A program made the translations under genes and the position numbers. DNA of 64,000 nt from Acidimicrobiales bacterium (GTDB lineage: Bacteria > Actinomycetota > Acidimicrobiia > Acidimicrobiales > Aldehydirespiratoraceae), in contig JAVJSI010000014.1 of NCBI GenBank assembly GCA_040219515.1, forward strand, positions 1 to 64,000, read 5' to 3'. The notes under the pieces were generated by a model, which saw only the letters and a list, made by a program, of their open reading frames with translations, did no database searches and had not been told where the DNA came from. Positions 28,245-43,587 of the stretch are shown here, one piece after another; position 1 is the first letter of the stretch; every line of letters begins with the position of its first letter.

Positions 28245-28713
28245 CGGGCCGCCACCGGTCGACGAGCTTCGCGCCCGACTGGCCGATCAGTATCCCGATG
28301 TCGTCGTGTGGGCCGCCGGCGGCCTCGTCATGCGAGACCACGACGGTGAGCTCGAACTGTTGCTCGTCCATCGCCCGCAGCACGACGATTGGTCGTTCCC
28401 CAAGGGCAAGGTCGACGACGACGAGGCGCTCAGCCACACCGCCGAACGCGAGGTCGAGGAGGAAACCGGCTTTCGGTGTCGCCGACTCCACCGCCTGCCC
28501 GAGGTTCGTTACGTCGACGCAAAGGGCCGAGAGAAGCTCGTGGTCTACTGGACCATGGAAGTACTCGACGGCGAGTTCGTGCTGAACGACGAGGTCGATT
28601 CCCTCGGCTGGTTCACCCTTCCGGCCGCGGAACCGATGCTCACCTACCAACGCGACATCGAACTGCTCGACGCGATCCGTCCGACCGAGCGCCAACTTAG
28701 ACTGCTGGCGTGA
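28237..28713 (+). CDS. Nudix hydrolase (MutT-like)
   Basis: 158 residues. The Nudix box is complete: G-K-V-D-D-D-E, then R-E-V-E-E-E-T-G-F. The substrate is a nucleoside diphosphate linked to another group; neighbours and resemblance to MutT1 (which lies next to ppk in mycobacteria) suggest oxidised nucleotides or diadenosine/inositol polyphosphates. Unlike MutT1 it has no C-terminal histidine phosphatase domain. The ATG at 28237 begins within the end of ppk; GTGA overlap with the next gene. Confidence 0.9.
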   Translation: MGDGPPPVDELRARLADQYPDVVVWAAGGLVMRDHDGELELLLVHRPQHDDWSFPKGKVDDDEALSHTAEREVEEETGFRCRRLHRLPEVRYVDAKGREKLVVYWTMEVLDGEFVLNDEVDSLGWFTLPAAEPMLTYQRDIELLDAIRPTERQLRLLA

Positions 28714-30284
28714 ACGACTCCGGCTGGCGCCCACTCGGGCGACCCGAGCCCAAGCCCGAAGGTGCCGAGGGTTTCGTCGTCACGCCGTTCGTGCGCCTCG
28801 CCCGGGTGCATGCCGCGGCGGCCGCTTCCGACGGCGCCATCACGGCGGCGTTGGCGGGCTCGATCTTCTTCTCGATCAGCCCCGACGAGTCACGCGGACG
28901 GGTGGCTCTCGCCCTCCTGTTGACGATGACGCCGTTCGCCGTGGTCACGCCCCTGATCGGCCCGGTCATCGATCGGGTGGCCGGTGGACGCCGGATGATG
29001 ATTCTCGGCACGCTGGCGGCACGAGCCGTCCTCGCCTTCTTGATGATCCGGCACTTCGACACGCTGCTGCTGTTCCCCGAAGCGTTCGGCATCCTCGTCC
29101 TACAGAAGGGCTATGCCGTCTCCAAGAGTGCCGTGGTACCCCAGTTCGTGAAGAACGAACAGGACTTCGTGAGCGCCAACAGTCGGCTCGCGCTCCTCAG
29201 TTCGATCGCCGGACCGGTCGGGGCGGGAATCGCGGGCGCCCTCAGCGTGGTCGGCGGGCCGGCGATCGCTGCCGCGATCGCCATGCTCGGATTCATCTTC
29301 GCCTCCGTGCTGGCATTGCAGCTGCCGAAGGTCGTGGTCGCGCCGGAGCCGGTGGAGCCGGCCGAGCGGGCCGAGCTCCGTGACGCCAAGATCCTGCTCG
29401 CCGCCACCTCCATGGCCGCGATTCGCGGCGCCGTGGGCTTCATCACGATGCTGTTGATGTTCGAGTTGCGCGGCGGCAAGGAGGCACTCAACACCTCGGG
29501 CGATGGCGCCGCGTTGGGCGGGGCCACGGCGACGGTGCGCGGCATCGACATCACCGGCGACCCCCGGGCCCCGGTATGGCATTTCGGACTCGTCGGTGCG
29601 TTCGCCGTCGTCGGGTCGCTGACCGGCGCTCGGTCGGCGCCGGCACTGCGCCACCGGGCCACCGAGGAACGGATGCTCGCAGGATCGCTCGCGGCCATCG
29701 TCGGTGTCGCCCTTTTCTCGGCGGTGAGCGGCTCCATCTTCGCCACGGCCCTGCTCGCCTTCATCGTGTCGATGGGAACGGTCACCGGAAAACTCTCGTT
29801 CGACGCCCTCGTGCAACGCGACGCGCCCGACGCGAACTACGGGCGATCGTTCGCCCGGTTCGAGGCGCGATTCCAGCTGGCGTTCGCGGCCGGCGCCTTC
29901 GTGCCGGTCATGGTCCGGATGGGCGTGCAGGTGGGGTCGTGGCTGGTCGCCACCGTGCTGGGCGTCGCCCTGTTCTCCTACATCGCCGGTGGACCCGGTC
30001 GGGGCGCCTTCACCCGGCGGCTGCGCACCGAGATCGCCAACGTGGCCGGTTCGCGCGGACGATCGTCCGACGACGACGACGACCCGACGGTGGAACTGCC
30101 CGACGACGACCTCCGACCCTCGCAGCCGTCGCCGCCGGCCGCGGCCGCCGAGATCGACGTGCCGGAGTTCTGGGACGACACGACGCCCTACGTGTCGTCG
30201 ATCGACGGGGTCGAGGTCGACCCCACACCGCCGGCCGACGACCGTGCCCGGGACGACGGTGCCCGAGACGACGAGCGGGATTAG
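28710..30284 (+). CDS. MFS-type transporter with acidic C-terminal tail
   Basis: 524 residues with about ten to twelve hydrophobic helices (for example V-A-L-A-L-L-L-T-M-T-P-F-A-V-V-T-P-L-I-G-P). The motif P-L-I-G-P-V-I-D-R-V-A-G-G-R-R matches the MFS loop 2-3 signature. The last 90 residues are cytosolic, Asp/Pro-rich (D-D-D-D-D-P-T-V-E-L-P-D-D-D). Last gene of the ROK-ppk-Nudix run; substrate unknown. Its TAG overlaps the stop of the convergent DUF2342 gene. Confidence 0.8.
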   Translation: MNDSGWRPLGRPEPKPEGAEGFVVTPFVRLARVHAAAAASDGAITAALAGSIFFSISPDESRGRVALALLLTMTPFAVVTPLIGPVIDRVAGGRRMMILGTLAARAVLAFLMIRHFDTLLLFPEAFGILVLQKGYAVSKSAVVPQFVKNEQDFVSANSRLALLSSIAGPVGAGIAGALSVVGGPAIAAAIAMLGFIFASVLALQLPKVVVAPEPVEPAERAELRDAKILLAATSMAAIRGAVGFITMLLMFELRGGKEALNTSGDGAALGGATATVRGIDITGDPRAPVWHFGLVGAFAVVGSLTGARSAPALRHRATEERMLAGSLAAIVGVALFSAVSGSIFATALLAFIVSMGTVTGKLSFDALVQRDAPDANYGRSFARFEARFQLAFAAGAFVPVMVRMGVQVGSWLVATVLGVALFSYIAGGPGRGAFTRRLRTEIANVAGSRGRSSDDDDDPTVELPDDDLRPSQPSPPAAAAEIDVPEFWDDTTPYVSSIDGVEVDPTPPADDRARDDGARDDERD

Positions 30285-31486
30285 TCGGGCGGGTCGGTGT
30301 CGTCGGCCAGTTCGATCCTGGCGAGCCAGAGGCCCGGCGCATCGACCTCGTTGGGCGTCGGAAGGTGGGAGGGGTCGGCGAAGAGCCGGTTGACCCCCTC
30401 GTCGCCTGCCCGCTCGGCGATGCCGGCGACGAAAGCGGTGCCGCGCTCGTAGTGGGCGCGGTCCAACTCGAGTCCGAGGATCCGTTCGACGAATCGGTCG
30501 CTGGCGTCGGCCTCGACCCGGCGTCGTCGGAGTGCCTCGGTGAGCATCGGATACGAACCGATGAGGGCGCCGCCGGTGCGGTCCATGATGTGATCGACGT
30601 AGCCGGTGATGGCGGCGACGGTCGCCGTGAGCTCGGGTTGAAGTGCTTCCTGGGCCGATGAGCGGACGGCGCCGAGGATGGCATCGGGATCGCCGAGCTT
30701 GTCCTGGAGGTCGGCGAGCGCGTCGGGCCCGGCCGAGATGTCGAAGCCGCCAAACGCCTCGCCGAGGGCGTCGGGGTCGCGCTCGAAGCTACGGGCGTGG
30801 CGGTGCAGAAGATCGGTCAGGCGCTCGCGTACGTGGGGCACGTTGATGACGGCATGGTGAGCCACCTCGTGGAGGCACACCCACAGCCGGAGATCATCGC
30901 GGTCGAGCGACCACTCGTCGCCGAAGTGATCGAGGTTGCGCAGAAGCACGAGGATCGGCGCGTCGGCCGGTCGGGGCACGGGCAGGGAGAAGCCGCCGAG
31001 GGCCGAGCGGGCCAGATTGCCGACCATCGAACCGGTCGTCATCCCGAGCATCATCGGGCCCATCATCTGCGACAACGAGGCCATCATCTGGGCCATGGGG
31101 TCGCCGGCTGGGAGGTCGTCGGGGCTGCCCATCGTGGCGGTCATACCCGCCGCCAGCTCCTCGAAGAGCGGCCGGTAGTCCTCGATCGTCTGGTCGGCCC
31201 ATTGCGACCGGTTGGCCACCGTGACCCGCAGCGGCCCGCTCCGGGCCACCGGAAGGTCGGTAGCACTCTGGACCTGGAGCTCGGCGACACGCACGAGGCC
31301 CTCGAGCGCGATGCGATCCGCAGGGTCGATGTTGGACTCGGACTCGCCGTCGTTGGCGATCGACCGGGCGAGTTGGCGGGCGCTGTCGACGCCACCGCCG
31401 GCCTGGCCCTGCAGCATCTTCATCAGTTCACCGAGGAACGGAACACCGCCGAACGGGTCGCCATCGGGTGGCAGATCGTCGCTCAT
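30281..31486 (-). CDS. DUF2342 zinc metalloprotease-like protein (zincin)
   Basis: 401 residues. Met/Gly-rich region near 120-150 (M-M-A-S-L-S-Q-M-M-G-P-M-M-L-G-M-T), then the zinc motif H206-E-V-A-H210-H in L-W-V-C-L-H-E-V-A-H-H. DUF2342 proteins are universal in actinobacteria, sometimes annotated as F420-biosynthesis-associated, without proven function. In M. tuberculosis the counterpart (Rv3195, from memory) lies next to PDZ and UPF0182 genes, which are also found in this window. TACCAT sits 6 nt before the ATG. Confidence 0.85.
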   Translation of the reverse strand: MSDDLPPDGDPFGGVPFLGELMKMLQGQAGGGVDSARQLARSIANDGESESNIDPADRIALEGLVRVAELQVQSATDLPVARSGPLRVTVANRSQWADQTIEDYRPLFEELAAGMTATMGSPDDLPAGDPMAQMMASLSQMMGPMMLGMTTGSMVGNLARSALGGFSLPVPRPADAPILVLLRNLDHFGDEWSLDRDDLRLWVCLHEVAHHAVINVPHVRERLTDLLHRHARSFERDPDALGEAFGGFDISAGPDALADLQDKLGDPDAILGAVRSSAQEALQPELTATVAAITGYVDHIMDRTGGALIGSYPMLTEALRRRRVEADASDRFVERILGLELDRAHYERGTAFVAGIAERAGDEGVNRLFADPSHLPTPNEVDAPGLWLARIELADDTDPPD

Positions 31487-31492
31487 GACGGC

Positions 31493-31498
31493 ATGGTA
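31493..31498 (-). promoter_or_regulatory. -10 box TACCAT of DUF2342 gene
   Basis: Minus-strand TACCAT ends 6 nt before the ATG at 31486; leaderless start. Confidence 0.45.
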
Positions 31499-31562
31499 GG
31501 TGCGTGACCGCGTCTTTCCGCCTCGCCGCAATCCGTCTCGGCCGCCCGGGTACCGGTTCTCG

Positions 31563-32624
31563 ATGACGCGGGTCGTGGTCACCGGCGCGGCGGGAGCGAT
31601 CGGATCCCGGGTCGTTCGTCGCCTGGTCGAGACGAACGCCGTCACCGAGGTACTCGCCGTCGATCGCGTCGGCACACCGGTGGCACCCGATGTCGAATCG
31701 AAGCGGGTCGACCTCGCCGCCGGGCCGCTCGATGCCATCTTCTCGGGCGCCGATGTCGTCGTGCATCTCGCTTCGGCAACCACGCCGGGTCGGCCCGAGC
31801 CGGCCGCCGAGGAACTCGACCTGGCCATCACCCGGCGAGTGCTGGACGCAGCCGGCGACGCGCACGTGGGTCAGATCGTCATCCTGTCGACGGCGATGGT
31901 CTATGGCGCCTGGGCGGCGAATCCGGTGCCGATCACCGAGGAAGCCGCCGTTCGCCCGAATCCCGATTTCAGTTGGGCCGTGGCCCGCGCCGACGTCGAG
32001 AATCTGGCGGCCGAGTGGGGGAGCCGCCACCCCGACGCGGCGGTCGCCATCCTTCGACCGACCGCGATCGTCACCGACGACGACCTCGGCGAACTGGCCC
32101 GGGTGCTGCACGCCGCCCGGCTCGGCGTCGCCGCCGACGGTGATCCACCCGTGCAGTACTTGCACATCGACGACCTGGCTGCGGCAGTGGTGATCGCGGT
32201 CACCGGCCGTCTCGACGGAGTCGCCAATGTCGCACCCGAGGGTTGGATCCCACCGGACGCGCTGAGCGACCTCGAAGGGCCGAGGCCGCGGCTGCGAGTG
32301 CCGTCGTGGGCGGCGCGCGCGGTGGCCGCCCTCCGTTGGCGATTCGGGGTGTCGCCGGTCCCACCCGGAGTGGTGCCCTACACCTCACACAGTTGGGTCG
32401 TGTCGAGCGATCGCTTGACCTCCATGGGATGGCGAGCCACTCACTCCAACGAGGAGGCATGGGTCGTGAGCCACGACCCGGGGCCTCTCGATCGTCTGCC
32501 CGCCCGTCGCCGGCAGGAACTCGCCTTGGTCGCCTCGATCCTGGTGATCCTCGGCGTGGTGGGCACGGTCGTCGCGATCGTGTGGCGGCTGCGGAAAGGC
32601 TCAGGCCTCGACATCGAGGCGTGA
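31563..32624 (+). CDS. extended SDR (NAD-dependent epimerase-like) with C-terminal membrane helix
   Basis: 353 residues. N-terminal Rossmann motif G-A-A-G-A-I-G-S, then V-V-H-L-A-S-A and L-S-T-A-M-V-Y-G. The expected YxxxK catalytic pair reads W-A-V-A-R, so standard dehydrogenase/epimerase chemistry is doubtful. A single membrane helix near the C-terminus (L-A-L-V-A-S-I-L-V-I-L-G-V-V-G-T-V-V) is unusual for the family and would tether it to the membrane. The end overlaps the convergent HtrA-like gene by 24 nt. Confidence 0.75.
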   Translation: MTRVVVTGAAGAIGSRVVRRLVETNAVTEVLAVDRVGTPVAPDVESKRVDLAAGPLDAIFSGADVVVHLASATTPGRPEPAAEELDLAITRRVLDAAGDAHVGQIVILSTAMVYGAWAANPVPITEEAAVRPNPDFSWAVARADVENLAAEWGSRHPDAAVAILRPTAIVTDDDLGELARVLHAARLGVAADGDPPVQYLHIDDLAAAVVIAVTGRLDGVANVAPEGWIPPDALSDLEGPRPRLRVPSWAARAVAALRWRFGVSPVPPGVVPYTSHSWVVSSDRLTSMGWRATHSNEEAWVVSHDPGPLDRLPARRRQELALVASILVILGVVGTVVAIVWRLRKGSGLDIEA

Positions 32625-33962
32625 GGCCAGTTCGACCCGGCAGCTCACGCGGTCGCCGTCTCGCACGACGATGACGTCGATGCTGTCGCCGGGGTCGTAG
32701 GAGCGCAGGGTGGCGACCATGGCCGCCATGCTCTCGATGACGTGGTGATCGATCACGGTGACGAGATCGCCGTCGACCATGCCGCCGACCGCGGCCGGAC
32801 CCTCGGGGCTCACGAACGTCACGAGTGAACCCGGGTCGTCGATCTGATCCGCGACATTCGGATCGCGGGCGGTGACGCCGAGCCATGGGTGTGTCGCCCA
32901 TCCGAGATCGATGATCTCGTCGGCGACCTCGCGGGCGAGTTCGATCGGGATGAAGGCGGCCGGGGCGTCGTCGGCGGTGGCCGTCGTGATGCCCACGACC
33001 TGACCGTTGACGGCATAGGCCGGGCTCCCCGGTGGAACATCGCCGATTCGACCGTCGAGCTCGACGATGCCGACCATCGGGTCGCCGTTCACCTTCGCGG
33101 AGGTCGACGCTTCGGCGACCACGCGTTGGGTCGAGAGACCACCGTGACGGGTGGCCATGTTGACCTCGTCGCCCTCGGACACCGCTGCATCGACGAGGTC
33201 GACGCCGGGGGAGGAGGTGTCGATGCGGATCACGCCGACTCCGGTGACGACATCGTGACCGACGACGGTGCCGGTCGCCCGGGCGTCGCCCCACGACACG
33301 ACCACCTCGGTGGTGTCGCCGAGGGCGTCGCCGCTGGTGGCGAGATAGCCGTCGCGAACGGTCAGGGCTCCGGCAAGCGGCTCGTCGCCCTCGACCGCGT
33401 AGACGAGGATCGCATCCGGCTCGGCCGGATCGAGATCCGCGGCATCCGTGTCATCCGATCCCGGCTCGGTGGCCACCGGGCCGGGATCGGCGTCGACGGG
33501 CAGCGAAGTGGGTACGGGCGTGGCGGGCGTGGTGGCGTCGGGGGACAGATCGTCGTCGGCGGCGTCGTCGAGTGAGGCGGGATCGGCCGGGGTGGCATCG
33601 GGAGGCTCCGTGTCGAGCCCGGCGTCGGCCGTCGTCGCGTCGGTTGCAGCACTTTCCGTGCCGGGGTCGCGGGATGCCTCGCCACCTTCGGTGTCGATGC
33701 TGGCGAGACCGTCGGCGGGGTCGGCCTCGGCTCGCACCCCGGCATCGCCGGCACCTCGTTGGGAGATCCACACCAGCCCGGTGACCACCAGCACACCACC
33801 GGCGAGCGTGGCGCCGGCCCTCAGACGACGCACCCTCCGACGGACGATGTCGGCCCGGCGGGCGGCCATGGCGACCTCGGCCGGGTGACGCCAGATCCGG
33901 TCGTCGGGCGGCAGGGGTCCACGGCCGACCGGCTCCTCGGCATCGTCTTCCCCGTATCCCAC
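32601..33962 (-). CDS. membrane-anchored HtrA-like PDZ protein with degenerate protease site
   Basis: 453 residues. Cytosolic N-terminus with P-P-D-D-R-I-W-R-H-P-A-E, a membrane helix (about 53-66), a long Asp/Ala/Pro/Thr-rich linker (about 75-190), a chymotrypsin-like domain and a PDZ domain (H-P-W-L-G-V-T-A-R through V-I-V-V-R-D-G). The usual T-N-x-H-V reads A-T-S-G-D-A-L (no His), and the Ser region G-N-S-G-G-P is P-G-S-P-A-Y. It is probably a pseudoprotease scaffold or sensor outside the membrane. GTG start at 33962 lies 8 nt after TACGCT. Confidence 0.7.
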   Translation of the reverse strand: MGYGEDDAEEPVGRGPLPPDDRIWRHPAEVAMAARRADIVRRRVRRLRAGATLAGGVLVVTGLVWISQRGAGDAGVRAEADPADGLASIDTEGGEASRDPGTESAATDATTADAGLDTEPPDATPADPASLDDAADDDLSPDATTPATPVPTSLPVDADPGPVATEPGSDDTDAADLDPAEPDAILVYAVEGDEPLAGALTVRDGYLATSGDALGDTTEVVVSWGDARATGTVVGHDVVTGVGVIRIDTSSPGVDLVDAAVSEGDEVNMATRHGGLSTQRVVAEASTSAKVNGDPMVGIVELDGRIGDVPPGSPAYAVNGQVVGITTATADDAPAAFIPIELAREVADEIIDLGWATHPWLGVTARDPNVADQIDDPGSLVTFVSPEGPAAVGGMVDGDLVTVIDHHVIESMAAMVATLRSYDPGDSIDVIVVRDGDRVSCRVELASRLDVEA

Positions 33963-33970
33963 GAAGGGTG

Positions 33971-33976
33971 AGCGTA
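33971..33976 (-). promoter_or_regulatory. -10 box TACGCT of HtrA-like gene
   Basis: Minus-strand TACGCT, 8 nt before the GTG at 33962. Divergent from the moaE promoter. Confidence 0.4.
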
Positions 33977-34039
33977 CCGATTGGCTTCCGTCTGGGGGGC
34001 GCGGCCCGGTCCCGAGGTTGGCCGGCCCGTCGGTGGCCC

Positions 34040-34045
34040 TACAAT
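34040..34045 (+). promoter_or_regulatory. -10 box TACAAT of moaE
   Basis: TACAAT ends 6 nt before the GTG at 34052. This decides the start: the longer upstream frame would begin before the promoter. Confidence 0.55.
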
Positions 34046-34051
34046 TCTCCC

Positions 34052-34534
34052 GTGCTCAACCCGCCCGCCGACGCCGACGACTGGCTCGCGCTCACCGAGG
34101 CACCGCTGCCGGTGGGTGCGGCCGCCGACTGGGCTGTCCTTCCACGGTGCGGTGCGCTGGTGTTGTTCAGCGGTACCGCGCGCGATCACGCGCCCGGGCG
34201 GGACGGTGTCGAGATGCTCGAATACGAGGCCTACGAGGCCCACGTCGTCCCTCGCCTGGCCGAGATCGTCAGGCGCATGCGCGACGAATGGCCGACCCTG
34301 GGCCGAGTGGCGCTGCTGCATCGCATCGGTTCGGTCCCGGTGGGCGAGTCGTCGGTGGTCGTCGTCGCGTCCTCGCCGCACCGCCCGGAAGCGTTCGCCG
34401 CAGCCCGCTTCGGCATCGACACGCTGAAGGCATCGGTTCCCATCTGGAAGCGCGAGCGGTGGCGCGACGGCGAGTCATGGGGCCTCGAGGCGCAGCACAT
34501 CACCGATGTCGACGGACTCGAGGTCGAGAGATGA
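34052..34534 (+). CDS. moaE: molybdopterin synthase catalytic subunit
   Basis: 160 residues. Matches MoaE: G-A-L-V-L-F-S-G-T-A-R-D-H, L-E-Y-E-A-Y, G-R-V-A-L-L-H-R-I-G, A-H-R-like S-P-H-R-P-E-A-F, and the catalytic lysines in T-L-K-A-S-V-P-I-W-K-R-E. It transfers sulfur from MoaD thiocarboxylate onto precursor Z in molybdenum cofactor synthesis. No other moa genes are nearby. GTG start fixed by the TACAAT box. Overlaps the next gene by ATGA. Confidence 0.9.
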   Translation: MLNPPADADDWLALTEAPLPVGAAADWAVLPRCGALVLFSGTARDHAPGRDGVEMLEYEAYEAHVVPRLAEIVRRMRDEWPTLGRVALLHRIGSVPVGESSVVVVASSPHRPEAFAAARFGIDTLKASVPIWKRERWRDGESWGLEAQHITDVDGLEVER

Positions 34535-34743: not shown

Positions 34744-35760
34744 CTGGCAAGAGACCTGGCGATCGACTTGGGCACCGCGAACACGCTCGTGTACGCCCGC
34801 GGCGAAGGCATCGTGCTCAACGAGCCGTCCGTGATCGCGCTCAACAGCAGGAACGGTGAAGTGCTGGCGATGGGCCACGAGGCCTGGCAGATGATCGGTC
34901 GCACACCGAGCTACATCGTTGCCGTGCGGCCCCTTCGCAAAGGGGCGATCACCGACTTCGACGTGACCCAGCGGATGATCCGGCTCCTCCTGCAGCGAGT
35001 CGGCGTCAGCCGACTGAACCGGCCCCGCGTGGTGATCTGCGTGCCGTCGGCCATCACTGCGGTCGAACGACGGGCTGTCACCGAGGCGGCCAAGCGCGCC
35101 GGTGCAGCCGATGCGCGGCTCATCGAGCAGCCGGTCGCTGCGGCGATCGGCGCCGACCTTCCGATCAACGAACCCATCGGCAACATGGTGATCGACATCG
35201 GCGGCGGCACCACGGAAACGGCCCTGATCTCATTGGGCGGCGTCGTCGCGCTCGAAGCGGTTCGGGTCGGGTCGTTCGACATCGACAATGCGATCCAGGG
35301 CTATGTCCGTCGCGAGTACGGGATCGCCGTCGGCGAACGCACCGCGGAGGAGATCAAGATCGTTCTCGGGTCGGCGGCCGTCACCGAGAACGAGGTCAAC
35401 GCCGAGGTCCGCGGCCGTGAGCTCATGAGCGGACTTCCCAAGACCGTCATCCTCACCCCGGGCGAGATTCGCGTGGCGATCGACGAGCCGGTCACCGCAA
35501 TGGTCGACTCCGTGCTCTCGTGCCTCGCCCAGGCGCCGCCCGAACTCGCCCAGGACCTGATCGTGCAGGGCATTCACCTCGTCGGTGGCGGCGGCATGCT
35601 CAAGGGCATGGACGCGCGGCTGTCCAAGGAGGCCGAGGTCGAGGTGCGATTGGTCGATTCGCCACTCGAGGCGGTGGCCTACGGTGCCGGCCGCGTGATC
35701 GAACACTACGAGTCGGTCCAGGCGATGTTCATGGAGGGTGGCAGCAGCTCTCGTCGCTGA
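34744..35760 (+). CDS. mreB: rod shape-determining protein MreB
   Basis: 338 residues, bacterial actin that directs elongation-mode cell wall synthesis. Phosphate 1 motif D-L-A-I-D-L-G-T-A-N-T; connect/phosphate 2 M-V-I-D-I-G-G-G-T-T-E; adenosine site H-L-V-G-G-G-G-M-L. The start must be CTG 34744, giving M-A-R-D-L-A-I-D-L-G, because a stop lies two codons upstream and the conserved N-terminus would be lost otherwise. mreC/mreD do not follow. Its presence favours a rod-like actinobacterium outside Corynebacteriales. Confidence 0.95.
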   Translation: MARDLAIDLGTANTLVYARGEGIVLNEPSVIALNSRNGEVLAMGHEAWQMIGRTPSYIVAVRPLRKGAITDFDVTQRMIRLLLQRVGVSRLNRPRVVICVPSAITAVERRAVTEAAKRAGAADARLIEQPVAAAIGADLPINEPIGNMVIDIGGGTTETALISLGGVVALEAVRVGSFDIDNAIQGYVRREYGIAVGERTAEEIKIVLGSAAVTENEVNAEVRGRELMSGLPKTVILTPGEIRVAIDEPVTAMVDSVLSCLAQAPPELAQDLIVQGIHLVGGGGMLKGMDARLSKEAEVEVRLVDSPLEAVAYGAGRVIEHYESVQAMFMEGGSSSRR

Positions 35761-35770
35761 CCGTTGGTGC

Positions 35771-36373
35771 TCAGTCGACCGGACCGAGGAGTTCGTCGAC
35801 GGCATCGCGCACCTGGCGATCACGGTCGTTGCGGGCTCGCGTCCAGGCCGCCTCCACCTCGGGCCCTTCGAATGCGACGAGCGCAATGACGGCCCGTCGT
35901 CGAATCGCGGGCTTGTCCTGGGTGGCCTGCAGCACTGCGGGTAGGCCGCGGTCGTCGCCGATCGCACCGAGCGCCGCGACGGCAGCCTCGCGGGCGAGGG
36001 GGTCCTCATGACGGCCGGCGACCGCGGCGAGGGCATCGATGACGGCGGGGGTGTCATCGGCTCGTTCCCCGAGTGCCCAGGCGGCCGACTCGACGACCAT
36101 CGGGTCCGGGTCGTCGAGCAGCCGATCGATCGGCGGCCGATCTCGGGGCGCGGCCAGTTCGAGCGCGGCGATACGCACCGCAGGGTCCGGGTCGACCAAC
36201 GCGGCGAGCAGCGGTGCCTCGTCCAACTCGCCCAGCCGTTCGAGTGCCCGGAGCGCGGCGATGCGAACCGGCCCGTTCTCGTCGCTCAGCGCTCCACGGG
36301 CGGTGGCCGGGTCGCCGGTGTGGCCGGCCACCCCCACCAGCCGGCGGCGTTGGGCACTCGACGGCGTCGTCAC
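35771..36373 (-). CDS. HEAT-repeat protein
   Basis: 200 residues of HEAT/PBS-lyase-type helical repeats, for example V-R-I-A-A-L-R-A-L-E-R-L-G, V-R-I-A-A-L-E-L-A, V-V-E-S-A-A-W-A-L-G and A-R-E-A-A-V-A-A-L-G-A-I-G-D. A binding scaffold; partner unknown. The GTG at 36373 lies 6 nt after a TACACT box, so I prefer it to the longer open frame starting at 36415. Convergent with mreB, 10 nt apart. Confidence 0.8.
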   Translation of the reverse strand: MTTPSSAQRRRLVGVAGHTGDPATARGALSDENGPVRIAALRALERLGELDEAPLLAALVDPDPAVRIAALELAAPRDRPPIDRLLDDPDPMVVESAAWALGERADDTPAVIDALAAVAGRHEDPLAREAAVAALGAIGDDRGLPAVLQATQDKPAIRRRAVIALVAFEGPEVEAAWTRARNDRDRQVRDAVDELLGPVD

Positions 36374-36379
36374 GTCGGC

Positions 36380-36385
36380 AGTGTA
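36380..36385 (-). promoter_or_regulatory. -10 box TACACT of HEAT-repeat gene
   Basis: Minus-strand TACACT ends 6 nt before GTG 36373 and argues against the longer reading frame as the real start. Confidence 0.5.
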
Positions 36386-36504
36386 CTCGTGGGGTGGTGC
36401 CCGGTCGCTCGTCACGGTGGTGTCCGGTGAGCCCTCGAAACCCTCAACAAGCCCGCCCCGGTGCCGACGGGATGGAACGGAACCCCTCGCGAAGGAACAG
36501 CTCG

Positions 36505-36960: not shown

Positions 36961-37352
36961 GCGATCGCCTGCTCGAGCAGGAACCCCGCGGCCAGCACCA
37001 TCACGCCGATGGTCGCCGCGAGCATCACGCCGATGGTGACGATGATGGCGGACAGGACGATGAAGGCACGTACGCGCTCCCAGACCCGTACATAGGCCCG
37101 CCGTCCGACCTCGGGGCGTTCGATGCCGCGCCGCACGATGCCGAGGGCTCGAAGCGAGTCCATGACGATCGACGTGTCGTCGTCCTTCTCGAGACGGAGC
37201 ATGGCGACGATCGACCCGGGCGACCGCGGCGAGAGCCTGGTGTCGATACGCCGCACCACCATGGCAGGCTGAAGCAGCCACGGCAGACGACCGCTGCCGG
37301 AGAAGACTCCCGCCACAAGGACGAGCACGAGCAAGATGAACGAGGAGAGCAC
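36957..37352 (-). CDS. small membrane protein of unknown function
   Basis: 131 residues with an N-terminal hydrophobic helix (F-I-L-L-V-L-V-L-V-A-G-V-F), a central charged region (R-L-E-K-D-D-D-T-S-I-V-M-D-S-L-R-A-L-G-I-V-R-R-G) and a long C-terminal hydrophobic stretch able to form two helices. The GTG start at 37352 overlaps the divergent PDZ-protease start region by 17 nt, so one of the two starts may be further in. No family recognised. Confidence 0.6.
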   Translation of the reverse strand: MLSSFILLVLVLVAGVFSGSGRLPWLLQPAMVVRRIDTRLSPRSPGSIVAMLRLEKDDDTSIVMDSLRALGIVRRGIERPEVGRRAYVRVWERVRAFIVLSAIIVTIGVMLAATIGVMVLAAGFLLEQAIA

Positions 37353-38493
37353 GTCGCCGGAGATAATACCGCCCGCTCAGGGACCGGCGGCGCGCGCCCT
37401 CTCCCGGGTTCGGGCCTCGTCGTTCGCCTGGAAGATGGTCACGGTGGTGATCGCCACGGCGGCCGCGGTCATGCTCAGCGCGGTCATACCCGCTCGCGGC
37501 CTTGCCGCGATCGTGCCGGGTCGGGCGTTGATCGACGACGACACCGTCGCGCAGAAGCCGGGTTCGGCCAACCCGACAGCCACCCGGGTCTCGATCGCGG
37601 CCGATGGTCTCGACGACCCCGATGGCTCGATCCTCTTCACCACCGTGCAGCTCGATACCAGCATCTCCGTCTTCGATTGGCTCAGCAGCGAGGTCGACGA
37701 CGACATCGACCTTCGGCGGCGCAGCGACGTGCTCGGCGACAGGACCGACGTCGACAATCGTGAGATCAACCTCGAGATGATGCAGGTCTCGAAGGACAAC
37801 GCCGTCGTGGCGGCGCTGGAGTACCTCGGTATCCCCGTCTTCGACGAGACCGGGCTCGGCATCGACACCGTGCGCGACGACGGCCCGGCTCAGGGTGTGT
37901 TGGTCGCGGGCGATGTCATCGTTGCTGTCGATGGTGTTCCCATCACGGGGTTCGCGTCGCTCCAGGATGTCCTGGCGACTGCGGCGCCCGGCGACGTCGG
38001 GGTGATCACGGTGGAGAAGTTCGACACGCTCGAACGCCGTGTCGTCGAACTCGCGTGGGGCGAACACCCCGACCGGCCCGGCGATGCCTACATCGGTGTG
38101 AACATCGTGCCGCGGCAGGAGGAACTCCCGCTTCCCTTCGAGGTCGAGATCGACTCGGGCAGCATCGGTGGCCCCTCCGCAGGCCTCGCGTTCTCCCTCA
38201 CGATCCTGGATCTGCTGACCGATGGCGACCTCACCGGTGGACTCGACGTCGCGGTCACCGGCACCATCGCGATCGACGGCACCGTCGGTCCCGTCGGCGG
38301 TTCGGGGCAGAAGGCGGCGGCCGCGCGTGACGCCGGGGCGGCAGCCTTCATCGTGCCGCTCGACATGGTTCCGATCGCCGCCCCCCACGCCGGCGACATG
38401 CCGGTGATCGGCGTCTCGACCCTCGAAGAAGCGCTCGGTGTCCTGGCCGATCTGGGCGGCGACCCCGCGTCGCAGGAACTCATCGTCCGCTGA
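37336..38493 (+). CDS. PDZ-Lon-like (S16) membrane protease
   Basis: 385 residues. One N-terminal membrane helix (V-T-V-V-I-A-T-A-A-A-V-M-L), a PDZ domain around 175-230 (D-G-P-A-Q-G-V-L-V-A-G-D-V-I-V-A-V-D-G), then a Lon-type proteolytic domain with the Ser281 (G-P-S-A-G-L) and Lys326 (Q-K-A-A-A-A) dyad 45 residues apart. YlbL/Rv3194c family; likely acts on envelope proteins on the outer face. In mycobacteria the homologue adjoins UPF0182, which follows here after one gene. The ATG lacks a clear ribosome site; a start nearer the helix is possible. Confidence 0.87.
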   Translation: MNEESTSPEIIPPAQGPAARALSRVRASSFAWKMVTVVIATAAAVMLSAVIPARGLAAIVPGRALIDDDTVAQKPGSANPTATRVSIAADGLDDPDGSILFTTVQLDTSISVFDWLSSEVDDDIDLRRRSDVLGDRTDVDNREINLEMMQVSKDNAVVAALEYLGIPVFDETGLGIDTVRDDGPAQGVLVAGDVIVAVDGVPITGFASLQDVLATAAPGDVGVITVEKFDTLERRVVELAWGEHPDRPGDAYIGVNIVPRQEELPLPFEVEIDSGSIGGPSAGLAFSLTILDLLTDGDLTGGLDVAVTGTIAIDGTVGPVGGSGQKAAAARDAGAAAFIVPLDMVPIAAPHAGDMPVIGVSTLEEALGVLADLGGDPASQELIVR

Positions 38494-38564: not shown

Positions 38565-40490
38565 GTGAATTCGCCTGCAGATGAGTTCGACCCGGCGTAT
38601 CTCGAGTCGGCGTCGTTCGAAGTGGTTCGCCGGGGTTTCGATCCCACGGCGGTACGCGGCGAGCTTCAGCGCGCCGCCCAGGAGATCCGACGCCTGCGAA
38701 TCGACCGCGATGCACTGGCCGGTCGCCTCGCCGAGTTCGACGGTGTCAGCCCCGAGCGCATCGAGGCCCATCGGGTTGCCGAGGCGCTCGGCGTCGAGGC
38801 GACCCAGGTGATCGAGGCCGCGCACTCCGCCGCCCGGGACCGGGCCGATCGGGCCGAGCGCGAGGCCGAGGCCGTGCGCGACGAAGCCATCGCGGCGGCG
38901 GAGGCCACTCGCACCGAAGCCCAGGCTGCTCGCGAAGCGACACTGGAGGCCGCCCAGCGCGAAGCCGAGGCGTTGGTCGAGGACGGGCGGGTGCGCGGCC
39001 GTGACATGGTCGCCGAAGCCCAGACCGTGCGCGAGAGGATGCTGCGCGACCTGGCTCGCAAGCGCCAGACCGGTCGGGCCCAGGTCGAGCAACTCCGCGC
39101 CGGCCGGGACCGCCTGCTCGAGTCGTTGACCATCACCCAGCAGAGTCTCGACACCGCAGTGGTCGATCTCGTGAACTCGGTACCCGAAGCGCGTGCCGCG
39201 GCCGAGCGAGCCGGACTCCGCGTCACCTCCGAGGCCACGCCGACGACCGACGAGTTGGAGGCGGAGATCCAGGCTGCCCGTCTCGTCGGCCACCCCCTGG
39301 TCGACGACATCGTCGACAGTGGGAACGTCGAGGACACCTTCACCACCGGCGAGATGGAAGCGCTGACCCACCTCGATGTCCTGGCGGGCGAAGACGAGAT
39401 CGACGCGCCGGCGGCGCCCGTCGCTGTCGAGGCCGAGAACGAGGACGACGAGGACATCCAGGCCGACGCTGCCGATGACGCCGAGGCCACGGACGCCGAC
39501 GAGGGACCCGATGTCACCGCCGATGACCCCGAAGGCGACGTCGCCGTCGCCGTCGCCGAGGTCGCCGCCGAGTTCGAGGAAGAGTTGACGCCGGCCGAGT
39601 TCGCCGCCCAGTTCGAACCCGACCCGGCCGAATTCGCCGCCGAGTCCGTGGTCGACGACACCGAGGGCGACACTCCCTACGATGTCGAGGCCGAAGACGA
39701 CAGTCCTGAAGAGGACAGCCCCGACGACGACACTCCCGACGACGACACTCCAGAAGACGACAGTGCCGAGGACGTGTTCGCGAAGCTCCGCTCGGCCCAG
39801 GAGTCCACCCCCGAACCCGAGCCCGAGCCCGAACCCGAACCGGAGCCCGAACCCGAACCGGCGCCGGAACCCGAAGGGCTGGACGAGGCCCGGGCCGCTG
39901 CGCGCAGGCGAGCGGCGGACACAGCGGCGAAGGCGATGAAGAAGGTGCTGGTCGAAGAGCAGGGCACCCTGCTCGACGGCATACGGCGCAGCGGCGCCGA
40001 CGCAGTGGGCGTGGTCATCGACGACGCCGCCGCGCATCGGTCGCCCTACGAGAAGGCGGCCGCTTCGGCCCTGAAGGACCTGGCAGGCGAACTCGGTGGG
40101 TCCAAGCGCATGGGGCTCGGCGACGCCAACGCCCAGCTCGAGACGATCGCGCTCGCCCCGGTGCGGCAACGGTTGCGAGAGGTGGCCGACCGGATCGAGG
40201 ATCCCGACGAGCTGTCCGACACCGTTCGGGCGCTCTACCGAGAGTCGCGCAGCCGGCGCATCGACGAGGCCGCAGCAGCTGCCGCGGTCGCCGTCGACGG
40301 CTTGGTCGCGCTTGCCACGGTCAGCGGCTCGGTCGTGTGGAACATGGTGGACGGCGGGCCGTGCGGGCCGGACTGCGCGGACAACGCGCTCGCGGGTGCG
40401 GTTCCCGTCGGCGAGGAGTTCCCCACCGGCGACCGACATCCTCCCGCGCACCCGGCGTGCACGTGCTGGCTCGAACCGGCCGACGACTGA
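38565..40490 (+). CDS. DivIVA-like coiled-coil protein with phage Mu F-like C-terminal Cys/His motif
   Basis: 641 residues. Residues about 15-50 (S-F-E-V-V-R-R-G-F-D-P-T-A-V-R) match the DivIVA N-terminal membrane-binding motif; a long Ala/Glu/Arg coiled coil follows to about 210; then an acidic segment (about 270-410) and an E-P dipeptide run. The last 190 residues fold separately, ending with C600-G-P-D-C604, then F-P-T-G-D-R-H-P-P-A-H-P-A-C632-T-C634-W. That spacing is typical of the C-terminus of Mu F-type (SPP1 gp7-like) phage head proteins. No phage genes are nearby. GTG start behind a TACGAT box. Confidence 0.8.
   Translation: MNSPADEFDPAYLESASFEVVRRGFDPTAVRGELQRAAQEIRRLRIDRDALAGRLAEFDGVSPERIEAHRVAEALGVEATQVIEAAHSAARDRADRAEREAEAVRDEAIAAAEATRTEAQAAREATLEAAQREAEALVEDGRVRGRDMVAEAQTVRERMLRDLARKRQTGRAQVEQLRAGRDRLLESLTITQQSLDTAVVDLVNSVPEARAAAERAGLRVTSEATPTTDELEAEIQAARLVGHPLVDDIVDSGNVEDTFTTGEMEALTHLDVLAGEDEIDAPAAPVAVEAENEDDEDIQADAADDAEATDADEGPDVTADDPEGDVAVAVAEVAAEFEEELTPAEFAAQFEPDPAEFAAESVVDDTEGDTPYDVEAEDDSPEEDSPDDDTPDDDTPEDDSAEDVFAKLRSAQESTPEPEPEPEPEPEPEPEPAPEPEGLDEARAAARRRAADTAAKAMKKVLVEEQGTLLDGIRRSGADAVGVVIDDAAAHRSPYEKAAASALKDLAGELGGSKRMGLGDANAQLETIALAPVRQRLREVADRIEDPDELSDTVRALYRESRSRRIDEAAAAAAVAVDGLVALATVSGSVVWNMVDGGPCGPDCADNALAGAVPVGEEFPTGDRHPPAHPACTCWLEPADD
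39810..39875 (+). repeat. Glu-Pro dipeptide repeat in DivIVA-like protein
   Basis: About eleven near-consecutive Glu-Pro dipeptides encoded by CCCGAA/CCCGAG hexamers, interrupted once by Ala-Pro; probably a stiff spacer between coiled coil and tail domain. Confidence 0.8.
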
Positions 40491-40542: not shown

Positions 40543-43500
40543 ATGCGCGCCGCCGATGACCTGCCCCGCCGCGAAACCAGCCGTCTGAGCGGTCGCGCCC
40601 GGGTGGTGGGCGTGGTGGTCGTCGTCGCGCTGCTGTTCCTGGCCGCCTCGCTGTCGGGTATCGCCGGCTTCTACACCGACTACCTCTGGTTCGACTCGCT
40701 CGGTCGCGCGTCGCTGTGGCGTCAGGTCCTGGGTGCGAAGGTGGCGCTCACCGCGATCTTCGGTGGCCTGTTCTTCGTCTTCATGTGGCTCAACCTGTTC
40801 CTCACCGACCGAGCGGCCCCCACGTTCCGCCCCGCCGGTCCCGAGGAAGAACTGCTGGCCCGCTACCACGACATCGTGTCCGGTAGGAAAGGACTCCTGC
40901 GCACCGGGGTCGCTGCCGTGTTCGCGCTGGTCGCGTCGGCCGGCGTCTCGAGCCATTGGGAGGAGTGGCTGCTCTTCACCAACCGGCAGGACTTCGGCAT
41001 CGACGACGAACAGTTCGGTGTCGACATCGGTTTCTACGTCTTCCAGCTGCCGTTCCTGAGCTTCGTGGTCGGGTGGGCCTTCGCCAGCTTCGTCATCATC
41101 TTCATCCTCACTGCGATCAGCCACTACCTGAACGGGTCGATCCGGGTCACTGCGGTGGCCGGCAGCCGGGCCACGCCCGCCGTGAAGGTGCACCTGTCGG
41201 TCATCCTCGCCGTCCTCGCCCTCATCAAGGCCGCCGACTACTGGCTCGACCGCTACGAACTCACCGTGTCCGATCGTGGCGTCGTCGATGGCGCGCTCTA
41301 CACCGATGTCAACGCACAGCTCCCGGCCATCTACCTGTTGATCGCCATCTCCTTGTCGGCGGTCGTGCTCCTCGTGATCAACCTGCGGCTCCGGGGCTGG
41401 ACCATGCCGGTACTGGCCGTGGGCCTCTGGGCATTCACCGCCATCGTCGTCGGCGGGATCTATCCGACGTTCGTGCAGCGGTTCCAGGTCGAGCCCAACG
41501 AGACCGCCCGCGAGGCCGAGTTCGTGGCCCGCAACATCGAAGCCACGACGTTCGCCTTCGGACTCGACGCCGTGCAGGTGCAGGAGTTCGACTACACCGA
41601 CGAACTCACGGCCGACCAGATCCGCAACGCCCAGGCGACGGTGGCCAACGCCCGTCTCCTGGATCCGGTCGCCGTACACCCCACGTTCGAGCGCGAACAG
41701 ACCGAGCGCGACTTCTACCGTTTCGTCGGCGTCGACACCGACCCGAGTGATCCCGAGGTCGGCATCTCTCTCGACACCGACCGCTACATGGTCGACGGCG
41801 AGTTGCGTCAGGTCGTACTCGGTGCTCGAGAGCTCAGTCTCGACGAAAACCTGAGTTGGGAACGCGAGCACGTTCGTCTCACCCACGGCTACGGCCTGGC
41901 CATGGCGACGGCCAACACGCCCACCAGTTCGGGGAGTCCCGACTTCATCGTGTCGAGCCTGCCGACGGCGGTGGATGACTCGTTGGCGGTCACGATCGAG
42001 CAGCCGCAGATCTATCACGGCGAGGATCTCGGCGGCTACGCGCTGGTCGACACGACCGTCCAGGAAACGGACTACGTCGACAGCCAGACCGGTGCCGATG
42101 TGCCGTTCGAATACGACGGCGTCGGTGGCGTCGAGATGGGCTCGTTCCTCCGCAAGGCAGCATTCGCGCTGCGCTTTCAGCAGATCGATCCGCTCATCTC
42201 GAACTTCGTCGACGGTGACACCCGCATCATCTACAACCGTGATGTCCACAATCGAGTCGCGGCGCTGGCCCCGTTCCTCGACTTCGACGCCGACGCCTAC
42301 CCCGTCATCGTCGACGGCGGCATCCACTACGTGATCGACGCGTACACCACCACCGACCGCTTCCCCTACAGCCAGGAGAGCGAGAACGGCCGTATCAGCG
42401 AAGGCGGTCTGTCCGGCACATCGTTCAACTACGTCCGCAACTCGGTGAAGGCCGTGGTCGATGCCTACGACGGCACGGTTCGGTTCTACGTGATGCCGGT
42501 CGACGACCCCATCATCAGGGCCTGGCAGGACGCGTTCCCCGATCTGTTCTCCGACTTCGACGAGATGCCGACCGAACTGCGAGACCACCTTCGCTACCCG
42601 CAGGACCTGTTCCGAGTGCAGACCAACATGTTCGCCCGCTACCAGGTCGAGGATCCCGCGGCGCTGATCATCAATCAGCTTGCGTGGGACGTCGCCCAGG
42701 ATCCCGGACGTACCGTCCGCGCCGGTGGCACCGAGGAGACCAACACCGATGAGTTCGGGGTCCAGACCACCAGCGAACGTCGTGTCAAGCCCTACTACTC
42801 GCTGATGCAGCTTCCCGGCGAGGACGAGGTGTCCTTCGTCAACCTCCGCACGTTCGTGCCCTTCGACGAGGCCGATGAACGCAAGGAGCTCGAGGCGTTC
42901 ATGATCGGCGAGACGAGATCCGACGGGTCGTCGCGCCTCGTCAGCTACGAGATGAACAGCGCGGCGGCACCAGGTCCCGTGCTCGTGGCCACGAGCATCG
43001 CCCAGAACGAGGAGATCGCCCAGCTCCTCACCCTGCTCAACGACACCGGCTCGAAGGTCGAGTTCAGCGACGTGTTGTTGCTGCCCATCGACAATGCGAT
43101 TCTGTGGGTGCGGTCGCTCTACGTGGCCGCCGACGGCACCAGTGTGCCGACACTCGAGAAGGTGATCGTGTCGGTCGGCGAAGGCGAACAGCTCGCCATC
43201 GGCTCGACGCTGGCGGAAGCCCTGTCCAATCTGTTCCCCGGCGAAGAGTTCGGCGACATCCTCGATCGCACCGCCGGTGGCATCGTCCAGCCCGATCCGG
43301 TCGAGCCGGACGAGCCGGTCGATCCGGTGGAGCCGGTGGATCCCGTGGAGCCGGTGGAGCCGGTGGATCCGCCGACCGACGACGGTCAGCCCGAGACGCT
43401 CGAGGACCTGATCGTGGAGATCGACGAGCTCTGGCGGCAGTCCAACGACGCCCTGGCGCAGGACCCGCCCGATCGAGTCGCGTCGGCCGAGGCGCTCGCC

Positions 43501-43587
43501 CGCATCGACGAACTCCTCGCGCTCAGCCGTTCCTTCACCGACACCGAATTACCGGAGCCCGTGGATCCCGGCGAGGTCGAGAGCTGA
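40543..43587 (+). CDS. UPF0182 family membrane protein
   Basis: 1014 residues. About seven membrane helices in the first 320 residues, beginning V-V-G-V-V-V-V-V-A-L-L-F-L, with the family signature G-F-Y-T-D-Y-L-W-F-D-S-L-G near residue 45, then a large extracytoplasmic domain (Y-Y-S-L-M-Q-L-P-G-E-D and F-V-P-F-D motifs). A Pro-Val-Glu/Asp repeat and a C-terminal helical segment end the protein. Universal in actinobacteria, function unknown. ATG 40543; its stop overlaps the CTG of the next gene. Confidence 0.93.
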   Translation: MRAADDLPRRETSRLSGRARVVGVVVVVALLFLAASLSGIAGFYTDYLWFDSLGRASLWRQVLGAKVALTAIFGGLFFVFMWLNLFLTDRAAPTFRPAGPEEELLARYHDIVSGRKGLLRTGVAAVFALVASAGVSSHWEEWLLFTNRQDFGIDDEQFGVDIGFYVFQLPFLSFVVGWAFASFVIIFILTAISHYLNGSIRVTAVAGSRATPAVKVHLSVILAVLALIKAADYWLDRYELTVSDRGVVDGALYTDVNAQLPAIYLLIAISLSAVVLLVINLRLRGWTMPVLAVGLWAFTAIVVGGIYPTFVQRFQVEPNETAREAEFVARNIEATTFAFGLDAVQVQEFDYTDELTADQIRNAQATVANARLLDPVAVHPTFEREQTERDFYRFVGVDTDPSDPEVGISLDTDRYMVDGELRQVVLGARELSLDENLSWEREHVRLTHGYGLAMATANTPTSSGSPDFIVSSLPTAVDDSLAVTIEQPQIYHGEDLGGYALVDTTVQETDYVDSQTGADVPFEYDGVGGVEMGSFLRKAAFALRFQQIDPLISNFVDGDTRIIYNRDVHNRVAALAPFLDFDADAYPVIVDGGIHYVIDAYTTTDRFPYSQESENGRISEGGLSGTSFNYVRNSVKAVVDAYDGTVRFYVMPVDDPIIRAWQDAFPDLFSDFDEMPTELRDHLRYPQDLFRVQTNMFARYQVEDPAALIINQLAWDVAQDPGRTVRAGGTEETNTDEFGVQTTSERRVKPYYSLMQLPGEDEVSFVNLRTFVPFDEADERKELEAFMIGETRSDGSSRLVSYEMNSAAAPGPVLVATSIAQNEEIAQLLTLLNDTGSKVEFSDVLLLPIDNAILWVRSLYVAADGTSVPTLEKVIVSVGEGEQLAIGSTLAEALSNLFPGEEFGDILDRTAGGIVQPDPVEPDEPVDPVEPVDPVEPVEPVDPPTDDGQPETLEDLIVEIDELWRQSNDALAQDPPDRVASAEALARIDELLALSRSFTDTELPEPVDPGEVES
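43294..43370 (+). repeat. D/E-P-V repeat region in UPF0182 protein
   Basis: Tandem GA(T/G)CC(G/C)GT(G/C) units encode alternating D-P-V and E-P-V; extended linker near the C-terminus. Confidence 0.8.

Follow-up and report, generated by a model that had tools for sequence, protein, structure and literature searches.

The window, by which we mean the whole stretch of 64,000 nucleotides analysed here, carries on its forward strand a gene (38565..40490, GTG start, 641 aa) whose product joins a DivIVA-type N-terminal part, an acidic linker and a C-terminal domain very probably related to the MuF proteins of phage heads. The open reading frame is present exactly as the first-pass annotation had listed it, and the terminal motif reported there, C-x3-C and then F-P-T-G-x-R-H-P-P-A-H-P-A-C-x-C-W, stands in the protein as written. 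The gene also lies where it had been placed, between a PDZ and Lon-type (S16, SepM-like) protease gene upstream (PDZ-Lon, 37336..38493, forward strand) and a UPF0182 gene downstream (40543..43587, forward strand), UPF0182 being a membrane protein by general knowledge and not by a transmembrane prediction. Farther upstream are MreB (34768..35760, forward strand) and a HEAT-repeat protein (35771..36415, reverse strand), and beyond MreB positions 28710-34531 hold an MFS transporter, a Zincin_2 metallopeptidase (PF10103), a PDZ protein and MoaE. Mycobacteria have a similar grouping of zincin, PDZ-Lon and UPF0182. The absence of phage genes nearby, another claim of the initial description, was borne out by ten neighbouring ORFs compared with the PHROGs at E ≤ 1e-5: none matched a phage structural family, and the two with any match (the PDZ protein and MreB) met only PHROGs of unknown function. 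Since the fusion gene does not stand beside portal or terminase genes, it does not qualify by its gene context as a phage MuF protein. Its own genome, of 4.02 Mb, contains one full match to the fusion protein and a second, weak one (E 1.7e-4) to residues 4-215 on contig C12.

The N-terminal DivIVA-type domain (38586..38744, forward strand, residues about 8-60) includes the stretch SFEVVRRGFDP..V and is followed by a predicted coiled coil (38745..39209, forward strand, residues about 61-215), delimited by eye from the sequence without a coiled-coil program. The N-terminal 258 residues can be aligned across orthologues, and the R-G signature of DivIVA is present in the fusion family. The DivIVA-like N-terminus first proposed is real, as six of seven orthologues scanned pass the PF05103 cut-off with 38.6 to 63.1 bits, but residues 1-258 of the window protein taken alone remain below the curated 28 bits (18.8 bits, E 0.0016). 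The PF05103 scan of orthologue L056 gave no match; among further orthologues, L110 passes with 54.8 bits and L105, at 23 bits, fails. Searched against the PDB, a 22-row N-terminal alignment that includes the window protein matches DivIVA (2wuj, E 1.9e-12, over profile positions of about 2-54), Wag31 (6lfa, E 1.2e-6) and several GpsB entries, as well as a designed helical bundle (E 4.4e-8) through its coiled-coil part. Judged from sequence, the N-terminus of the fusion protein is a DivIVA domain, degenerate in the window protein and clear in its orthologues. The strongest DivIVA match of the genome lies elsewhere, on contig C11 at 49492 (E 8.2e-19), with a weaker one on C12, so the fusion protein is probably not the main DivIVA of its host. 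Alongside these DivIVA-like genes the genome has two strong MreB matches.

An acidic low-complexity linker (39300..39866, forward strand, residues 246-434) follows, with 73 aspartates and glutamates, only 2 lysines and arginines and a net charge of -71. Whole-protein matches to NCBIfam and PHROG families (SslE, DarA, TonB, tail fibre and others) were set aside, as they fell mostly on this acidic, PE-rich stretch. The C-terminal domain, about residues 441-636, consists of a MuF-homologous four-helix core (39885..40319, forward strand, residues 441-585), delimited from AlphaFold2 helices and residue tallies, and of the MuF Cys/His tail (40338..40472, forward strand, residues 592-636), which reads W592...C600-G-P-D-C604...F-P-T-G-D-R-H-P-P-A-H-P-A-C632-T-C634-W. 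Residues C604, H629, C632 and C634, with C600 in the window protein, form a putative zinc site, for which there are no metal-binding data.

The relation of this domain to MuF proteins emerges mainly from its orthologues. The HMM comparison with PF04233 (curated cut-off 29.6 bits), suggested at the outset as a check, failed on the window protein, which has no match even at E ≤ 10; scanning its own genome with PF04233 returned nothing, nor did a direct NCBIfam scan of its domain. The portal family PHROG 2662 matches the window protein at E 1.4e-4. PF04233 itself is reached only through orthologues: 16 of 30 diverse orthologue domains match it at E ≤ 1, the best at 3.4e-5, a less significant value than the 7.5e-7 given by a 30.3-bit match; the highest score among those shown is 20.9 bits (L050), and none of these attains 29.6 bits. 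PHROG 2662, annotated as portal protein, is matched at E ≤ 0.01 by 24 of 30 orthologue domains, the best at 6.9e-15, and in this best member (L051) the alignment runs over profile positions 486-708 of 717 and spans the whole domain of about 210 aa.

The reverse search gave a consistent result. A profile of 80 cellular domains, all starting before model position 31 and reaching position 205, which excludes shortened and tail-less domains by design, recovers phage MuF proteins with up to 71 bits. All five of the phage proteins so found that were scanned pass the PF04233 cut-off, and one is a portal-MuF fusion. In a separate search, the portal of Brevundimonas phage Strzyga scored 50.5 bits, and gp33 of Streptomyces phage mu1/6 is a weak match at 11 bits; the BFVD entry Q1WDG7 is, we assume, this same gp33, and its length (723 aa) agrees. 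Aligned by hhalign with 52 viral domains, the cellular profile reached a probability of 99.7% (E 9.6e-27, columns 56-219). Once the tail had been cut from both, the 61 columns directly preceding it reached 67.7% (E 4.9e-5), compared with 0.1-0.5% for five controls run with these cellular helices (reversed, column-shuffled, DivIVA coil, UPF0182 and PDZ-Lon). These E-values apply to single one-to-one comparisons. As the viral domains were picked by the tail pattern PPxHxxCxC, their 52/52 agreement at those positions holds by construction; W592, C604, N607, G611 and F619 lie outside the pattern. From these comparisons, we hold the DivIVA and MuF homologies of the fusion protein with high confidence.

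Not every phage MuF protein is close to the cellular domain, because the orthologue-domain profile A1 had no match at E ≤ 10 in the ORFs of six loci (L124, L128, L136, L137, L138 and L145), some of which are phage-type portal or MuF loci from genomes of the class. Two of these, L136 and L137, are 4.4 kb contigs of genome G099 whose phage-type portal match extends as far as the C-terminal end of PHROG 2662; the same genome also carries a DivIVA-MuF gene (L139). The outcome of searches in viral sequences depended on the query. A first scan of viral contigs with a window-led alignment confirmed none of 99 stretches, and phage tblastn found no match with L041, one weak record with L051 and 23 records at E ≤ 10 with L075 (best 8e-3). 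Better matches came only with a tail-only alignment led by L075, which gave 290 stretches in the viral scan, with 121 relatives, of which 80 were kept. A plasmid search returned no match. When the domain alignment was compared with PDB sequences, 15 weak matches at E ≤ 1 came up, the best being ZorA (E 0.0021); they were judged chance helical similarities and discarded.

AlphaFold2 modelled a 209-aa construct starting at residue 433 with a pLDDT of 95.3 and a pTM of 0.91, placing helices at construct positions 9-53, 56-77, 87-111 and 115-153. Of the 50 best matches in the BFVD, 30 carry a name, and 28 of these belong to head, capsid, portal, MuF or minor structural proteins. A phage head morphogenesis protein ranks first (E 3.8e-4); query TM-scores do not exceed 0.63, and only 2 of 358 matches have E ≤ 0.001. 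For a tail-less family member, modelled with a pLDDT of 92, the 50 best included 28 named entries; 14 of these were portal, head, capsid or minor structural proteins, none of them significant (best E 0.074). In this comparison by structure prediction, also recommended initially, viral minor-capsid, MuF and portal models are nearest, but PDB fold matches were generic helical bundles only and no solved structure helps. As far as models can tell, the expectation of a fold common to the MuF proteins of phage minor capsids and portals is met.

The tail is conserved in orthologues of many families. The 80 cellular domains, which were selected for extending into the tail, all have C632 and C634, and 75 have H629. 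The frequencies of other tail residues in cellular and viral rows are respectively 75/80 and 47/51 for W592, 72/80 and 52/52 for C604, 72/78 and 26/40 for N607, and 66/80 and 43/52 for F619. The C-x3-C spacing is particular to the window lineage; most members have C-x2-C, and those outside the class C-x4-C. Four helix residues are nearly invariant, both in tail-bearing members (K459 80/80, Q466 72/80, R474 76/80, R559 74/80) and in tail-less ones (Q466 and R559 17/17, K459 and R474 14/17). They look specific to the cellular family, with the reservation that only 5-6 viral rows align at K459, Q466 and R474; at R559, where 36 do, six have an arginine. Because these residues persist where the tail is missing, we infer that the helical core bears a binding surface and that the phage tail is becoming optional.

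The position of the gene was surveyed, as had been advised, in a neighbourhood table of 80 loci that leaves out the short loci L002-L032 and L060-L102. The domain is present in 67 of these loci, from 65 genomes, and the survey upheld the expected slot: UPF0182 follows the gene on the same strand in 67/67, at most 200 bp away by open-frame ends in 64, and PDZ-Lon lies upstream in 52/67, within 300 bp in 41. The DivIVA part is fused to the domain in 63/67; of the four others, L039 has an apparent frame break, and L114, L116 and L265 have no DivIVA match in the table. The HEAT-repeat protein belongs to the same neighbourhood in many loci, and MreB was found in 28/67, many loci being too short to reach it. 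MreB linkage was dropped as a functional clue, since MreB occurs in 275 of the 296 phylum-sample genomes and its nearness is uninformative.

Of 61 near relatives, 54 have the domain; it also occurs in 174 of 247 genomes from the class Acidimicrobiia and in 42 of 296 genomes of the phylum sample, 15 of these 42 being outside the class (14 of the 15 were examined with wide flanks, G524 being left out). These counts are lower bounds, because two genomes first scored negative (G040 and G052) carry a tail-less copy. All 42 phylum-sample carriers have UPF0182, compared with 197/296 overall (hypergeometric 7e-9, relatedness being ignored). For the 60 of 65 loci with a long enough domain and UPF0182, the distances of the two proteins are correlated (Spearman 0.55, Pearson 0.80, matched in none of 2000 permutations). 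Among seven congeners, median dN/dS is 0.17 for the helical part (21/21 pairs) and 0.15 for the tail (19/21 pairs, two having no usable dS). The domain is thus under purifying selection, its divergence tracks that of UPF0182, and it is inherited in one fixed gene slot.

The Cys/His tail has been lost in several lineages while the key helix residues were kept. It is absent in frame from 22 of the 67 domain-bearing loci, many of which had been picked for a short match; in an unselected sample of near relatives, the match ends before the tail in 10 of 54 genomes. One more match of that sample, in G018, is a fragment at a contig edge, and stop codons occur in some matches. Stages of tail decay can be followed within one genus, where the tail of L144 could still be read but for a stop codon where it begins, L140, L141 and L143 seem by eye to have eroded remnants, and L142 has no readable tail. 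At L155 (about 6739-6915) a MuF tail stands in an open frame, and a frameshift or assembly error is suggested because the upstream part is not readable as the domain. Genome G072 has paralogous DivIVA-MuF genes (L121 and L122), both tail-less and each directly upstream of a UPF0182 copy. Likewise G052 carries UPF0182 at two loci, both preceded by a MuF-domain gene, of which one (L266) ends before the tail and the other (L265) has its DivIVA side cut off by the contig end.

UPF0182 was also sought in 19 genomes, 18 without a domain match and one (G075) with a marginal one (8.7e-4), and was present in 16. The 15 UPF0182 slots examined, from 14 genomes without or with marginal domain match, fall into four kinds. 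PDZ-Lon adjoins UPF0182 with nothing between in seven (L255, L256, L258, L259, L262, L264 and L268), no family member lies upstream of UPF0182 in four (L257, L261, L263 and L267), and three keep the helical domain without its tail (L265, L266 and L269). The last, in genome G047, holds a DivIVA-only gene (L260:974-1975, an open frame of 333 aa) from which the MuF domain is missing, and is a natural separation of the DivIVA and MuF halves.

Our best explanation, which we rate as slightly better than an even bet, is a chromosomal DivIVA scaffold that bears a domesticated phage MuF domain behind an acidic linker and docks a cell partner, likeliest UPF0182 with PDZ-Lon. By homology, the DivIVA end would bind the membrane and, like other DivIVA proteins, oligomerise at the poles or at sites of growth, and the linker may keep the C-terminal domain away from the membrane. 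In phages, the MuF domain ties its protein to the portal ring. In the cell it would now dock another partner, an inference without binding data, and the likeliest candidate, UPF0182 together with the PDZ-Lon protease, could thereby be positioned in the envelope. UPF0182 is the best guess since it is adjacent in every tabulated domain locus, but it occurs without the fusion gene in many genomes, and its docking by the MuF domain is for now a tentative idea that we would not yet back. Polar or envelope placement is likewise inferred from DivIVA homology and gene neighbourhood; it has not been shown, and there are no localisation data. We consider it reasonably probable that actinobacteria acquired a phage portal-docking domain early in their history, joined it to DivIVA beside UPF0182 and made it into an envelope adaptor, and that the tail is being shed in several lineages while the helix surface stays fixed. 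The proposal of the first-pass annotation that a phage head-morphogenesis fold was recruited to a DivIVA scaffold is in this respect supported by the orthologue scans, the profile-profile comparison and the structure models.

Other readings of the same data deserve consideration. The MuF domain might have kept a DNA binding like that of SPP1 gp7 and tie the nucleoid to a DivIVA-coated membrane. The nearly invariant positions of the helices do include several basic residues, and a title in the reference list of PMC6316719 describes gp7 as a portal-targeted DNA-binding protein. The domain as a whole is however acidic (net -12 in the window protein, median -9 and range -21 to 2 over the 80 cellular domains) and follows a linker of net -71; because of this acidity we regard a DNA tether as unlikely. 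A little less plausible still, a cellular MuF copy could serve as a decoy for the portals or heads of phages, or as their sensor, blocking assembly or triggering a membrane response. It would fit the homology to portal-associated domains and the occurrence of phage-type portal genes in class genomes. This role is not excluded, but it fits the conservation pattern poorly: the slot is fixed, divergence tracks UPF0182, selection is purifying, and the tail common to phages is repeatedly lost. Moreover, no defence family was identified among the neighbours, and the window protein has no PADLOC match, orthologue L041 giving only weak ones read as coiled-coil similarity.

A DivIVA protein that gained a zinc knuckle by convergence, without descent from MuF, is what the lack of a direct PF04233 match in the window protein and the generic PDB fold matches would suggest. 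The first-pass annotation had named such an unrelated knuckle as its own refutation; this reading is contradicted, since PHROG 2662 spans about 210 aa in the best member and tail-less columns align to viral MuF. The homology runs through the helices even with the tail removed, and the portal and head proteins that make up half of the named entries for the tail-less model point the same way, albeit without significance; we give convergence very little weight. Weaker again, and in our opinion hardly tenable, is prophage debris or a chance fusion in one genome, which has phage homology alone on its side. It would have to account for the same fusion in 63/67 loci, ten neighbouring ORFs without a phage structural family and dN/dS values of 0.15-0.17. 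The domain is not prophage debris because it is widespread in the class and beyond, sits in a fixed slot beside UPF0182, diverges in step with it and is under purifying selection.

We return to the domesticated adaptor on a DivIVA scaffold, for which no prior description was found in the open-access literature. The search there found no report of a DivIVA-MuF protein and, among papers naming PF04233 (Phage_Mu_F) or PF05103, none naming both families; subscription journals and preprints were outside its scope. MuF toxins were described in 2017 as occurring only in temperate phages and the prophages derived from them, with 96% of the muf genes of bacterial genomes tied to prophages or remnants (PMC5576092), and MuF fusions were reported in the same year in phage and mobile-element proteins (PMC5512222). 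SPP1 gp7 binds the portal, enters the procapsid and is dispensable but aids the start of infection (PMC6316719), and the DivIVA of Actinomycetota, with its membrane-targeting N-terminus, coordinates polar growth (PMC12585849, PMC6644302). Many environmental actinobacteria hold, at one fixed spot, a DivIVA-type scaffold whose C-terminal domain is otherwise familiar from phage heads, and this suggests that a phage part was taken over long ago for a task in the cell. If true, a domain that has been described as almost exclusive to phages would here be put to cellular use and passed on by vertical inheritance. A class-wide MuF-DivIVA protein under purifying selection would add a case to the domestication of virion parts, offer a handle on MuF domains as docking modules and point to a little-studied neighbour system, that of UPF0182 and PDZ-Lon.

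The closest known relatives of the C-terminal half are the phage MuF proteins (Mu F, SPP1 gp7; PF04233) and the portal-MuF fusions (PHROG 2662; the Strzyga portal), which have the same helical domain followed by the tail. Phage MuF and the cellular family share in this tail W, C-x2-C, N, G, F, G and P-P-x-H-x-x-C-x-C. Unlike its phage counterparts, the cellular gene is chromosomal, stands beside UPF0182 instead of portal and terminase, is fused to DivIVA and encodes a domain below the PF04233 curated cut-off. The A-R-T-E stretch of the aligned viral consensus is absent from the cellular family, and K459, Q466, R474 and R559 are nearly invariant only in the cellular set, with few viral rows at the first three. 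The MuF polymorphic toxins of temperate phages likewise use MuF as a module of multi-domain proteins (PMC5576092); in these, MuF precedes a C-terminal toxin, whereas in the fusion protein MuF is itself C-terminal, no toxin domain was found and the chromosomal slot is fixed. With DivIVA, Wag31 and GpsB the fusion protein has in common an N-terminal membrane-type domain and a coiled coil, to which it adds the acidic linker and the phage-derived domain, and it is not the strongest DivIVA match of its genome. Encapsulins and other domesticated phage head proteins offer a further parallel, as there too the cell reuses a part of the phage virion; encapsulins differ in having the HK97 major capsid fold and in serving as nanocompartments.
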